This document shows, piece by piece, positions 18,504 through 23,098 of a stretch of DNA of 64,000 bases. A program made the position numbers and the translations under genes. This DNA comes from Pedobacter ureilyticus (GTDB lineage Bacteria > Bacteroidota > Bacteroidia > Sphingobacteriales > Sphingobacteriaceae), in assembly GCF_005925345.1 (NCBI RefSeq), contig NZ_SSHJ01000012.1, positions 78,395 to 142,394 on the forward strand. The letters run 5' to 3'. The stretch's first letter is position 1; each line of letters opens with the position of its first letter. The notes below the pieces were generated by a model. The model ran no database searches. It was given only the letters and a program-made list of their open reading frames with translations, and was not told where the DNA came from.

Positions 18504-18536
18504 AAAGACCGTGGATGCGGTCTTTTCTTTTTTTTG
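18504..18536 (+). terminator. Intrinsic terminator after the beta-barrel gene
   Basis: AAAGACCG (18504-18511) pairs perfectly with CGGTCTTT (18518-18525) across a six-base loop, followed by a C-interrupted T-run to 18535. Confidence 0.85.
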
Positions 18537-18569
18537 CTATTTTTAATATTCCTCAAAAACCTATGGAAG

Positions 18570-19160
18570 ATGGCTGAGAAATTCCAAAACAAATACCGAA
18601 TTCCGTCGGCACGTGCCGCTTGGTGGGATTATGGCCTAAATGCCACTTATTTTATAACCATTTGTACCAAAGACCGCAAGCATTACTTTGGCAAGGTGGT
18701 TAGCGGCGAAATGATTTTATCTCCCTTTGGGAAATTTGCGCAGCAATGCTGGAATGAAATACCTTTACATTTTCCTTTCGTGATATTGGATGAATTTGTG
18801 GTGATGCCTAATCATATTCATGGGATTATCATTATTGATAAAATGGATGATGATACGCTGGGTGTAAAGACGCAAAATTTTGCGTCTCCTGATGGCATGA
18901 AATCAAAAGAGACACAAGATTTTGTGTCTCTACCAGACGGTGCAAATAACAAATTCGGGCCTCAATCTCAAAATCTGGCATCTATTATCCGTGGATTTAA
19001 AATTGGCGTAACCAAATTGGTCCGTACACAAAATCCTAATTTTGCTTGGCAACCTCGTTATCACGACCATATCATCCGCGACCAAAAGGCCTACGAAAAC
19101 ATTTCAAATTACATCAGAAATAATCCATCTAATTGGGAAAAAGATAAATTCAATCTTTGA
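18570..19160 (+). CDS. REP-associated tyrosine transposase (Y1, IS200-like fold)
   Basis: Starting at ATG 18570 gives 196 residues beginning MAEKFQNKYRIPSARAAWWD. The HUH motif is VMPNHIHGIIII with His82 and His84, and the region YHDHIIRDQKAYENISNYIR (about 164-183) contains the candidate catalytic tyrosines, followed by NNP. This is the RAYT type, single-copy transposases that act on REP palindromes. Residues 100-121 replace the usual short linker with peptide encoded by two DNA palindromes (see that entry). An alternative TTG start upstream overlaps the previous terminator and is less likely. No IS ends are seen around the gene. Confidence 0.85.
   Translation: MAEKFQNKYRIPSARAAWWDYGLNATYFITICTKDRKHYFGKVVSGEMILSPFGKFAQQCWNEIPLHFPFVILDEFVVMPNHIHGIIIIDKMDDDTLGVKTQNFASPDGMKSKETQDFVSLPDGANNKFGPQSQNLASIIRGFKIGVTKLVRTQNPNFAWQPRYHDHIIRDQKAYENISNYIRNNPSNWEKDKFNL
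18868..18931. repeat. Two REP-like palindromes inside the transposase gene
   Basis: The first, 18868-18887, is a perfect 20-base palindrome with half-site AGACGCAAAA. The second, 18908-18931, is a 24-base palindrome with half-site AGAGACACAA and one central mismatch. Both keep the reading frame and encode the related peptides KTQNFAS and ETQDFVS. They look like two copies of one element inserted in the gene, then diverged. Confidence 0.9.
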
Positions 19161-19218: not shown

Positions 19219-19848
19219 CTATATCTTCTCTCCTTTTTCGAGTTTCTCTTTTCTATGCTCTTGTGATAGATAATGTAACAAGGTATTTAAAACCACCGCA
19301 TTCCAATCATTATGCAAACTCACATTGATGTTTTTCTTTTTATCGTACATATCTTGCACATGCAAAATGCCTTTATCTAAAAAATATTTGGTTTGGCTCC
19401 AAGGCAAAATGGTTGTTTTGGTCTTACCTAAAAACCATGTTTTATACGACACTTCAAAACCTCGATAATCAAATTTGGCAGCACCAACTTCTAATTGCTC
19501 TTGGTTATTCAGCTTCTCTATAAATTCATTTACCAAGTGTTTTTTTACATACTGCCACAAACCCGACATGATGTAATAATACGTATGATCTTCCTCCAAA
19601 AGTTCTTCAACCTTGCTACTTTCGAACTGCACACTTAACGATTTACCATCCTTACCTTTTACGTCAATGGTATATTTCTTTTTAGTAGGTTTTTTTACCG
19701 GCCCAATTAAAGAAACCCCATATTTTACCGCAGCGACATCTGCGCAGGCAATACGGGTTTGATTTACCTCAATAACTTCGGCTGTAATTTTTACTTTTTG
19801 CTTTGATGAAGGAATGACGATATCTACGTCGAAATTGTGGTGTTGCAT
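19219..19848 (-). CDS. Protein of unknown function, 209 residues
   Basis: I do not recognise the family. There is no signal peptide or membrane helix. The N-terminal half is beta-rich with a Lys-rich stretch PVKKPTKKKYTIDVKGKDGK (about 51-70). The middle has an aromatic cluster HTYYYIMSGLWQYVKKHLV (about 88-106). The C-terminal half (about 125-180, RGFEVSYKTWFLGKTKTTI to ILHVQDMYDKKKN) resembles a PH-like or YcxB-like strand pattern, but this is only impression. Codon use matches its neighbours. It is bounded by a terminator and the chloride-channel-type gene, transcribed the same way 56 bp upstream. Confidence 0.6.
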   Translation of the reverse strand: MQHHNFDVDIVIPSSKQKVKITAEVIEVNQTRIACADVAAVKYGVSLIGPVKKPTKKKYTIDVKGKDGKSLSVQFESSKVEELLEEDHTYYYIMSGLWQYVKKHLVNEFIEKLNNQEQLEVGAAKFDYRGFEVSYKTWFLGKTKTTILPWSQTKYFLDKGILHVQDMYDKKKNINVSLHNDWNAVVLNTLLHYLSQEHRKEKLEKGEKI

Positions 19849-19903: not shown

Positions 19904-21205
19904 TTAAATTTCATCGATACGTTTACCGGTATAAAACAAGTACCTTCTGTGTTTCGGTTCGCCAATAACCTGTTGGCCGTAAATACCAGTATGTCCAGAC
20001 AATAGGTAGGAAACGATACAAGCAATCCCCGCGTAGATACCACATTGCGCACCAAACAATTCTATAGCCATAAGTGTACAGGCGATGGGTGTATTGGTGG
20101 CGCCCGCAAACACAGCCACAAAGCCTATTCCGGCGGCCAAGGCTACCGGAAGGGGAATAAAGAACGCTAGGGCACTGCCTAATGTAGCACCAATAAAAAA
20201 CAGTGGTGTTACTTCGCCTCCTTTAAAACCTGCAGATAGGGTGAGAATCGTTAATGCCATTTTTATCGCAAAACTGTACATCGGCATTTCGTGCTCAAAC
20301 GCCTCTACAATGGTAGGTATGCCCAAACCAATATATTTTGTGGTGCCCGATAAATAGATAATTACAACTAAAATTACGCCGCCTACTACCGGCCGTATTG
20401 GAGGATAATTAATTTTTTTGAATGCCTTGGTAGCAAAGTGTATGCCTTTACTAAAAGCAGCCGCACACAAGCCAAAAATTACTCCTGCAATAACGGTATA
20501 TGCGAGGTTCGCAAATGACATATCAGGTACAACATCAATATGGTAATGCGTATGCGGCGTGCCCCAAAGTTTAGTAACCACATCGGCGATAACGGCTGCA
20601 GCAAAAGCTGGAAAAATAGCGTCGTATTTTAATTTTCCAATCAAGAAAAACTCCATGGCAAATATGGCTCCCGCCAAAGGCGTACCAAACACCGAACCAA
20701 AACCGGCAGCAATAGCGGAAATGATCAAAATCCTTCGCTCTTCGTTACTAAGCTTAAAGGGCTTGCTCAACTGGTCGGCAATAGCACCAGCCATTTGTAG
20801 TGCAGTACCTTCTCGTCCGGCAGAGCCGCCAAACAAATGTGTAATGATGGTGCCTAAGTAAACAAAGGGCATCATCTTAAAAGGAATAGTTTGTTTGGGT
20901 TGGTGTATGGTATCGATGAGCAAATTATTACCTGCAGCTACCTCTTTACCATAATAATGATAAAGCAAACCAATAGCCAAGCCCGCTAGCGGTAGCAAAG
21001 CGATGATCCATAAGTGAGACTCCCGATAGTTAGTTACCCAGTTTAGCGATTGCAAAAATCCAGCCGATGCGGTACCAATAAGTACACCCACCACCGAGGT
21101 AATAACAATCCATTTGAATAGATACGGGACAGCACCGTATTGACGAAAGAAGGCTAAAAAACGAATTTTACTGCTTTTAGTAATTGATTTTGGCTTTTTT
21201 GACAT
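19904..21205 (-). CDS. CLC family antiporter, CLC-F (fluoride/proton) type
   Basis: The 433-residue protein has the CLC fold with about 10-12 helices. The gating glutamate is Glu132 in GGSAGREGTALQ, and GFKGGEVTPLFFIGATLG is the second anion-path helix. In place of the chloride-type GSGIP motif it has AGNNLL (Gly92-Asn93-Asn94), the pattern I associate with CLC-F fluoride exporters. A fluoride riboswitch sits directly upstream, which makes export of cytoplasmic fluoride the best assignment. It is in a single-gene unit; a good Shine-Dalgarno (AGGAGA) precedes the ATG. Confidence 0.85.
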   Translation of the reverse strand: MSKKPKSITKSSKIRFLAFFRQYGAVPYLFKWIVITSVVGVLIGTASAGFLQSLNWVTNYRESHLWIIALLPLAGLAIGLLYHYYGKEVAAGNNLLIDTIHQPKQTIPFKMMPFVYLGTIITHLFGGSAGREGTALQMAGAIADQLSKPFKLSNEERRILIISAIAAGFGSVFGTPLAGAIFAMEFFLIGKLKYDAIFPAFAAAVIADVVTKLWGTPHTHYHIDVVPDMSFANLAYTVIAGVIFGLCAAAFSKGIHFATKAFKKINYPPIRPVVGGVILVVIIYLSGTTKYIGLGIPTIVEAFEHEMPMYSFAIKMALTILTLSAGFKGGEVTPLFFIGATLGSALAFFIPLPVALAAGIGFVAVFAGATNTPIACTLMAIELFGAQCGIYAGIACIVSYLLSGHTGIYGQQVIGEPKHRRYLFYTGKRIDEI

Positions 21206-21236
21206 GATTCTCCTGATTAAATGTGAAGCATTTATT

Positions 21237-21290
21237 AACCAGGCGCCATCAGCTTTTTAGGGCGGTTCGAATAGGAAGACACCATTTCCT
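21237..21290 (-). promoter_or_regulatory. Fluoride riboswitch (crcB motif)
   Basis: Read on the minus strand, GGAAATGGTGTCTTCC is followed by AACCGC, a short loop and GCTGATGGCGCC. This matches the crcB-motif consensus, in which a GG.GATGG.G..C.CC hairpin precedes AACCGC and GCTGATG.CGCC. GGAA/UUCC forms the first hairpin stem with compensatory changes from the consensus. GGUGUC can pair with GGCGCC to give the pseudoknot-closing helix, with two wobble pairs. An AAATG-CTTCA-CATTT hairpin just before the AGGAGA site could be the expression platform. It lies 32-85 bases before the CLC-F start, exactly where it would control that gene. Confidence 0.88.
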
Positions 21291-21295
21291 TAGCA

Positions 21296-21302
21296 CAAAG
21301 TA
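21296..21302 (-). promoter_or_regulatory. Probable minus-7 box for the fluoride-riboswitch transcript
   Basis: TACTTTG on the minus strand (one base short of TAnnTTTG) ends six bases before the riboswitch begins, so transcription would start at the aptamer's 5' edge. No clear minus-33 TTTG is seen. Confidence 0.4.
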
Positions 21303-21313
21303 AATGAAAATTT

Positions 21314-21452
21314 GCCACAGATGCACAGCTATTTTTTTTTCTTATCGTTTAAAAGATAAAATTCAGCACAAAATGAAAATTTTTGCACCTTTCAACTCTC
21401 CGCTATCTTCACGCTATTGCGATGGCAAAATGGCTATCTGTGCATCTGTGGC
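21314..21452. repeat. Long inverted repeat, copy 2 of the GCCACAGATGCACAG family
   Basis: Perfect 15-bp arms GCCACAGATGCACAG (21314-21328) and CTGTGCATCTGTGGC (21438-21452) enclose 109 bp. It occupies the spacer between the divergent/tandem CLC-F and hutU genes. No coding content is credible inside, so a MITE-like or REP-type element is likely. Confidence 0.8.
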
Positions 21453-21457
21453 TAAAA

Positions 21458-23098
21458 CTATAATCCCAACCTATGCTTTCTTAGTGTATCTTTTGCAATA
21501 TCATAGCCAGCATCTGCATGGCGAATTACACCCATCGCCGGGTCGTTGTGCAATACCCGTTTCAATCTTTTAGCCGCATCTTCCGTTCCATCGGCCACAA
21601 TTACCATCCCAGCGTGGATAGAATAGCCAATGCCCACACCACCGCCGTGATGTAACGAAACCCAACTTGCGCCCCCAGCCGTGTTGATCAAGGCATTTAA
21701 AATTGGCCAGTCGGCTACGGCATCCGAACCATCTAGCATGGCTTCGGTTTCTCTATTTGGCGAAGCCACAGAGCCAGTATCTAAATGGTCACGACCAATA
21801 ACGATAGGTGCTTTTACCTTACCTTCGGCTACCAATTTATTAAAGGCCAAACCAGCTATTTCCCGTTCGCCCTGCCCCAGCCAACAAATTCGGGCTGGCA
21901 AACCTTGAAAAGCGATACGTTCTTGCGCCATGGTAATCCATCGTTTCAAACTTTCGTTTTCTGGAAATAATTCTAAAATTACTTTATCAGTTTCGTAAAT
22001 ATCTTGAGGGTCGCCACTTAAAGCAGCCCAACGGAAAGGCCCTTTACCTTCGCAGAACAACGGACGAACATAAGCAGGCACAAAACCAGGAAAATCAAAA
22101 GCATTTTTTACACCGACCTCTAATGCTCGGCCACGTAAGTTATTACCATAATCAAAAGTGATTGCACCTCTTTTTTGCAGCTCCAACATCTGTTCTACGT
22201 GTTTCGCCATGGTTGCGTAACTGCGTTTAACGTATTCTTCCGGATCTTTCAAGCGCAAATCCGAAGCTTCGGCAACAGACAATCCTTCCGGAAAATATCC
22301 AATTAACGGATCATGTGCTGAGGTTTGGTCGGTTAAAGTATCTGGAGTGATATCCCTATCGATCAATCGCTGCAAAAGCTCCACAGCATTGCAAACCACG
22401 CCGATAGAAATCGCCTTTTCTTCCTTCTTATATTGTAATGCTTTGTCAATTGCCTCATCAATATCATAGGCAATTTCATCGATATACCGAGTTGCTAAAC
22501 GTTTTTGGATACGCCATTCTTCTACATCTGCCGCTAGACAAACACCTTCGTTCATGGTAATGGCTAAAGGTTGTGCCCCACCCATGCCTCCTAAACCAGC
22601 AGTTACGTTGAGTTTTCCTTTTAAATTTCCATCGAAATGCTTTTTGGCCAAAGCTGCATAGGTTTCGTAAGTGCCTTGCACGATGCCTTGCGAGCCAATG
22701 TATATCCACGAACCAGCAGTCATTTGCCCGTACATCATCAAACCTTTATCTTCCAACTCGTCGAAATGTTGTTGTGTAGCCCATTTTGGCACCAATTGCG
22801 AATTGGATATCAATACTCTCGGTGCATCTTTATGCGTTGGCAAAACACCTACAGGTTTTCCAGATTGGATGAGCAAAGTTTCATCATCTTCCAAGTTTTT
22901 CAACGCTTTAATGATGAGTTCCAGTGCCTCTTTATTCCTTGCCGCTTTACCTCGTCCTCCGTACACAATTAAATCTTCGGGTCTTTCTGCAACTGCCGGA
23001 TCTAGGTTGTTCAACAACATCCTTAATGCCGCTTCTTGTACCCAACCTTTGCAGTTTAAAGTTGCTCCGTGCGGTGTTTGACTTTCTTTCAGGTTCAT
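21458..23098 (-). CDS. hutU: Urocanate hydratase
   Basis: This 546-residue protein is urocanate hydratase (EC 4.2.1.49), the second step of histidine breakdown, turning urocanate into imidazolone propionate with tightly bound NAD. The family start is clear ([20 protein letters not shown]), the NAD-binding [19 protein letters not shown] lies near 168-186, and the C-terminal catalytic stretch with [15 protein letters not shown] and [10 protein letters not shown] is intact. Length is normal. hutH is 3 kb away on the same strand, but hutI and hutG are not in this window, so the pathway is split. Confidence 0.95.

Follow-up and report, generated by a model that had tools for sequence, protein, structure and literature searches.

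The locus analyzed here lies in a 64-kb stretch of the Pedobacter ureilyticus genome (64,000 nucleotides, hereafter the window) and raises the question of whether a gene of the kind usually labeled as a chloride channel belongs to a fluoride-responsive unit and, if so, how an RNA sensor in its leader would control it in a bacterial group with ribosomes reported to be blind to Shine-Dalgarno (SD) sequences. A first-pass annotation of the window had pointed to a crcB-motif leader on the minus strand and to a downstream gene of the fluoride-exporting CLC branch.

The aptamer and the CLC-F protein

The comparison with the Rfam fluoride riboswitch model (RF01734), which had been suggested as a check in the first-pass annotation, yielded a significant match on the minus strand (21298-21233) that spans the whole model (positions 1-64) and scores 39.1 bits, above the gathering threshold of 34 (E = 2.6e-7 in the 64-kb window and 4.8e-9 in the whole genome). 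This is the sole match in the 4.98-Mb genome. The crcB-motif assignment is thus upheld by the covariance model, and the segment originally delineated (21237-21290) falls inside the actual element but captures only part of it because the aptamer together with its expression platform extends from approximately 21298 to 21205. Both helices described previously are present. The P1 hairpin (21274-21289) pairs GGAA (21289-21286) with UUCC (21277-21274) and is invariant and paired in all 21 aligned leaders, the window being counted among them; its loop contains the 5' strand of the pseudoknot, GGUGUC (21278-21283), which, according to both the RF01734 alignment and the aligned leaders, pairs with the 3' strand GGCGCC (21242-21247), with five of the pairs kept in 21 of the 21 close leaders. 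The third stem (21252-21263), as seen in the sequence, the RF01734 match and the leader survey, indeed consists of two G-C pairs (GC/GC) closing an 8-nt loop, CCUAAAAA. The description of this stem as unusually short does not hold, given that a simple script, for which one of the 98 leaders was unreadable, found a 2-bp stem in 32 of the 98 CLC-linked leaders of the host's family, 18 of these with an 8-nt loop. The start of clcF is located 27 bases past the end of the model, and the aptamer is predicted to bind fluoride.

Immediately upstream, at 21296-21303 on the minus strand, we identified a candidate promoter box, TTACTTTG, with one mismatch to TAnnTTTG, which we take to be the -7 consensus of Bacteroidota. 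Using 97 of the 98 CLC-linked leaders and, as a control, the stretch 118-150 nt upstream, we found the exact pattern in the 30 nt preceding P1 of 68 of the 97 leaders versus 1 of 97 controls; when up to one mismatch is allowed, as in the window, the counts are 95 of 97 versus 37 of 97. Because the exact box so often lies just upstream of the aptamer and so rarely in the control stretch, the transcript probably starts near the aptamer 5' end, which would make the aptamer the 5' end of the mRNA. The upstream neighbor on the same strand (21458-23098) is the unrelated urocanate hydratase gene (hutU). Between hutU and the riboswitch promoter, there is an imperfect inverted pair of GCCACAGATGCACAGAT (21436-21452 and 21314-21330), the 16-base core of which occurs at 64 places in the genome with at most one mismatch, compared to 0 when the pattern is reversed; several of these places form inverted pairs lying near each other, as in a REP-like family. 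The product of an open reading frame on the plus strand (18534-19160) resembles a REP-associated tyrosine transposase (61.7 bits, below the model cut-off of 80) and may serve this repeat family. A 209-aa reading frame directly downstream of clcF (19219-19848, minus strand) has no match in Pfam or NCBIfam. The window also contains a Flavo-1 RNA (RF01705; 9543-9444, minus strand; 56.5 versus 42 bits), another copy of which is found downstream of clcF in locus L154.

The gene itself, clcF (19904-21205, minus strand), encodes a 433-aa protein that matches PF00654 with 255.7 bits. Its best matches among solved structures are three sequences of a CLC-type fluoride/proton antiporter, 6d0j, 6d0k and 6d0n (209.5-212.8 bits), compared to 55.4 bits at most for the Escherichia coli ClcA entries. 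The claim that GNN replaces GSGIP was confirmed, with GNN standing at the position of the GSG of ClcA, and ClcF contains all three CLC-F signatures in the form GNNLL, GREGT and GGEVTP (given as GNNLI/GMGLI, GREGT/V and GEVTP in PMC11139923). All 98 riboswitch-linked CLC proteins of the host's family, the window's included, share GNN, GREGTA and GGEVTPLF. In a quick maximum likelihood tree of 54 CLC proteins, built without bootstrap, ClcF, 20 riboswitch-linked CLCs and 6d0j (the single characterized CLC-F in the set) formed one starred group of 22 rows on a long branch (SH-aLRT 100), apart from E. coli ClcA and ClcB, the second CLC of the same genome and 29 CLCs of the phylum, which were the best Pfam scorers, a choice that favors other CLC branches. 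The tree program warns of long branches, and therefore we claim only the separation of the CLC-F group; this answers the call in the first-pass annotation for phylogenetic placement, with ClcF grouping with 6d0j and away from the CLCs that carry GSGIP. No match to CrcB/Fluc was detected in the genome; CLC-F and Fluc are usually mutually exclusive, as stated in PMC11139923. The named relatives of ClcF (59-77 % identity) come mostly from Pedobacter and other Bacteroidota. Among the best 120 homologues listed, those with names are mostly called 'voltage-gated chloride channel family protein' or 'H+/Cl- antiporter ClcA', and one is named 'Chloride/fluoride channel protein'; with names so generic, the fluoride reading improves the annotation. 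Taken at the level of protein sequence, ClcF is likely a fluoride exporter, a CLC-F type fluoride/proton antiporter predicted to transport fluoride.

The association of the aptamer with CLC-F genes extends well beyond the window. RF01734 matches above the cut-off were found in 99 of the 201 genomes of the host's family. Considering the 112 matches above the cut-off and 4 of those below it, a CLC-F reading frame is adjacent to 96 of the former and 2 of the latter (98 of 116 altogether), and some of the other 18 (L100, L103) have a CLC-F gene located further downstream in the same orientation. The aptamer is present at each of the 12 named CLC-F loci, three of which apparently come from genomes already in the family sample. 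Conversely, of the 148 family genomes that match CLC-F strongly, the set left after 30 weak ones were removed by hand, 97 have a linked aptamer, with the filters of the RF01734 genome search losing weak matches; for the CLC-F genes L048, L052 and L056, no RF01734 match was obtained even at E<=1. In several family clusters headed by such leaders, the next genes include enolase (L087, L100, L103, L105, L125, L128), and PAP2-like or metallophosphatase-like genes come next in others (within the set L087, L098, L100, L103, L105, L125, L128 and L132); one gene of each type was confirmed by Pfam and the others were read by eye. Enolase is inhibited by fluoride and is known from such operons (PMC5533749, PMC11139923). 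Three genomes of the window's genus (L219, L220, L221) share, at 99.0-99.6 % identity, a stretch of about 6.5 kb that encompasses a fluoride aptamer, enolase and CLC-F, and 9 genomes have its leader in identical or almost identical form, which suggests recent transfer of this stretch.

A start-site hairpin that shares bases with the pseudoknot

Beyond what had been described at this locus, we identified an expression platform. Helix search, folding and the aligned leaders converge on a 9-bp hairpin between CCUGGUUAA (21235-21243, minus strand) and UUAAUCAGG (21212-21220, minus strand). Its 5' arm begins with the last two bases (CC, 21243-21242) of the pseudoknot 3' strand GGCGCC, and its 3' arm ends 6 nt before the AUG, so that an alternative helix predicted to compete with the aptamer is present in the start region. 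In an alignment of 21 leaders (the window and 20 relatives), 98.2 % of the 168 cells of this helix are paired, versus 11.4-50.0 % when the 3' arm is slid by 1-3 columns, a control that favors a structure derived from the same sequences. These 21 leaders comprise the window, 13 family loci with proteins at least 60 % identical, L123 (included for its similar leader, with a more distant protein) and 6 named loci, L156 being left out as identical to L137; the leader stretches were trimmed partly using the CAG of the arm. No hairpin pair changes on both sides in this set, and hence the support that it lends is conservation rather than covariation. The folding energy of the whole leader is no better than that of shuffled sequences (z +0.60, 147 of 200 shuffles as good), an uninformative measure with pseudoknots outside the model, and the platform alone folds mildly better than shuffles (z -1.54, 14 of 200 as good).

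The lack of two-sided changes among the close leaders led us to examine the wider family. A helix of at least 5 bp was found in 65 of the 98 CLC-linked leaders, and 48 of the 98, taken singly, beat simple shuffles at p<=0.05. The arms come in several types (CCUAC/GUAGG, CCUGC/GCAGG, CCUGA/UCAGG and UCUAC/GUAGA), and a helix score of 5 is reached by 59 of 93 leaders paired with their own arm (the 98 after removal of identical arm-and-region pairs) versus 11.6 % of the 5962 pairings across types. For 54 of the 65 leaders carrying a helix of at least 5 bp, the end of the 3' arm falls between -1 and 11 nt from the chosen start. The other 33 leaders have no such helix starting from the shared CC: the hairpin is shifted in 20 of them, 12 have at most 4 bp, and one (L080) was missed through the choice of start; the shifted hairpin, CGAUUUU/AAAAUUG, is found in 20 of 21 tested leaders of a subgroup of the window's genus. 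Elsewhere in the phylum, 11 of 26 further aptamers precede CLC-F, and 10 of these 11 reach a helix score of at least 7, although 6 of the other 15 do as well.

Of the two bases that the folds share, the first forms a pair with its pseudoknot partner in all 98 leaders (81 G-C, 17 A-U) and matches its hairpin partner in 60 of the 65 leaders where the position of the hairpin could be fixed independently of this base (50 C-G, 10 U-A), whereas permutation of the hairpin partners, which ignores relatedness, gave a mean of 42.8 and a maximum of 53 in 10000 trials. The 65 leaders here and the 65 with a helix of at least 5 bp are sets obtained under two definitions, with 62 members in common. On the tree of the 98 proteins, the shared base changed at least four times; three independent starred pairs are available for it, and in these the change was accompanied by one in the pseudoknot partner in 3 of 3 and by one in the hairpin partner in an average of 2.8 of 3, too few events for a sign test to attain 0.05. 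The joint change seen at the fourth hairpin pair carries a bias, complementarity having been used to locate the 3' arm, but the shared-base test is free of that bias because this base was left out of the anchor. One shared base thus covaries with both of its partners, as G-C-G or as A-U-A.

A proposed translational switch and its alternatives

We are confident that these elements make up a fluoride riboswitch that turns on clcF translation via the start-adjacent hairpin, the product expelling fluoride. In the proposed scheme, the riboswitch, with which the clcF mRNA would begin, senses rising cytoplasmic fluoride. Without fluoride, the pseudoknot would open and the CC of its 3' strand would zip into the CCUGGUUAA/UUAAUCAGG helix beside the AUG, denying the 30S subunit access to the start. 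In the presence of Mg2+ and F-, GGCGCC would be locked against GGUGUC in the pseudoknot and the hairpin would lose its base, so that the start opens, ClcF is made and fluoride is expelled; the first shared base would then belong to a pseudoknot pair with fluoride and to a hairpin pair without it. We infer a translational ON switch because there is no terminator-like site, no U run follows the hairpin and the 3' arm lies near the start in most leaders with the helix.

Several other readings have to be weighed against this scheme. The gene could be a chloride channel or a chloride/proton antiporter that stands by chance behind a degenerate crcB motif, in line with the generic Pfam family and source names and with an aptamer score merely 5 bits above the cut-off; given the CLC-F signatures, the grouping in the tree and the retention of the aptamer in all 12 named relatives, we find this barely credible, and the aptamer above its gathering score, the three signatures and the starred group with 6d0j support the fluoride interpretation that had been proposed for the locus. 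Transcriptional control, in which a hairpin that overlaps the pseudoknot would terminate transcription when fluoride is absent, as in Bacillus cereus and Thermotoga petrophila, is the best-studied mode of these riboswitches (PMC11077080, PMC13273304), and some aptamers of the phylum with no CLC gene following end in a hairpin and a T run (L204, L206, L214 and L216, as judged by eye). In the window, however, a scan of 21150-21480 that allowed loops of 3-8 detected 0 terminator-like sites, the hairpin is followed by AGAAUCAUG with no U run, and the placement of the 3' arm in the 54 leaders noted above ties the hairpin to the start; we therefore rejected the terminator reading, which appears improbable. 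As regards the phylum, other aptamers not preceding CLC-F have long hairpins resembling those of the CLC-F leaders (6 of 15 with a helix score of at least 7), and because both T-run and long hairpins are seen before non-CLC genes, the platform type may vary with the downstream gene.

Alternatively, the hairpin could act in the style of a classical translational riboswitch by hiding the SD sequence: AGGAG lies 4 nt before the AUG in the window and begins within the 3' arm of the hairpin, the AGG of which hardly varies among the 21 close leaders. That AGG, however, is accounted for by its pairing with the CCU of the aptamer, the complete AGGAG is present in merely 4 of the 21 leaders (the window counted), for which reason SD masking was rejected as the main device, and the ribosomes of Bacteroidia are reported not to recognize SD sequences (PMC9976891). 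We accordingly regard masking of the SD as doubtful, if less so than termination, and favor structure at the start site itself as the means of control, in keeping with the report that initiation in Flavobacterium is tuned by mRNA structure (PMC6847099). In its general form, toward which we lean with some reserve, the proposal is that the clcF riboswitches of Bacteroidota achieve SD-free control of translation through one base shared between the sensing fold and the start-site hairpin and co-evolving with both partners (G-C-G or A-U-A), such that the ligand would determine if a structure-reading ribosome is blocked by folded RNA beside the AUG.

Relation to known fluoride riboswitches

The pairing of a riboswitch with CLC-F is of an already known kind, fluoride aptamers in front of CLC-F genes being established (PMC7266159, PMC11139923). 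Competition between the pseudoknot and the expression platform is likewise established for terminators (PMC11077080, PMC13273304); the second of these sources, a 2026 covariation study of whole fluoride riboswitches, was filtered for terminators and names the translational riboswitches of Pseudomonas syringae and Burkholderia pseudomallei. In the open-access literature, a scope that leaves out most subscription papers and so gives no proof of absence, we found no published Bacteroidota platform for a fluoride riboswitch, nor any description of a start-site hairpin that shows three-way covariation in a phylum poor in SD sequences. The present analysis offers a well-founded prediction of function, fluoride export, for genes mostly labeled as chloride channels and suggests how a well-known sensor was fitted to a group with ribosomes reported to be SD-blind. 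The three-way covariation could seed a matching model for translational fluoride riboswitches, and SD-free riboswitch control becomes testable in Flavobacterium or Pedobacter.

Riboswitch-controlled CLC-F antiporters, namely eriC-F of P. syringae and others, were reportedly described in 2012 by Baker and by Stockbridge. As in the window, the aptamer of these systems lies directly upstream of CLC-F and the proteins have the same signatures; the window differs in its Bacteroidota host, in the rival hairpin at the start region and in belonging to a group reported to lack SD initiation. P. syringae and B. pseudomallei, hosts of translational fluoride riboswitches, differ from the window's group in that they use SD pairing. 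Their riboswitches, which PMC13273304 lists as translational controls, are like that of the window in that there is no termination and control is presumably exerted where the ribosome lands. In B. cereus and T. petrophila, the platform invades the 3' strand of the pseudoknot and the two folds are mutually exclusive, as proposed for the window (PMC11077080, PMC13273304), but the invading structure is an intrinsic terminator there, whereas in the window it is a hairpin set against the start codon with no U run. On the protein side, the closest characterized relative is the CLC-F of Enterococcus casseliflavus (6d0j), which matches ClcF with 212.8 bits over residues 35-412, has GREG and GGEVTPLF in common with it and belongs to the same group in the tree, with GMNL where the window protein has GNNL.
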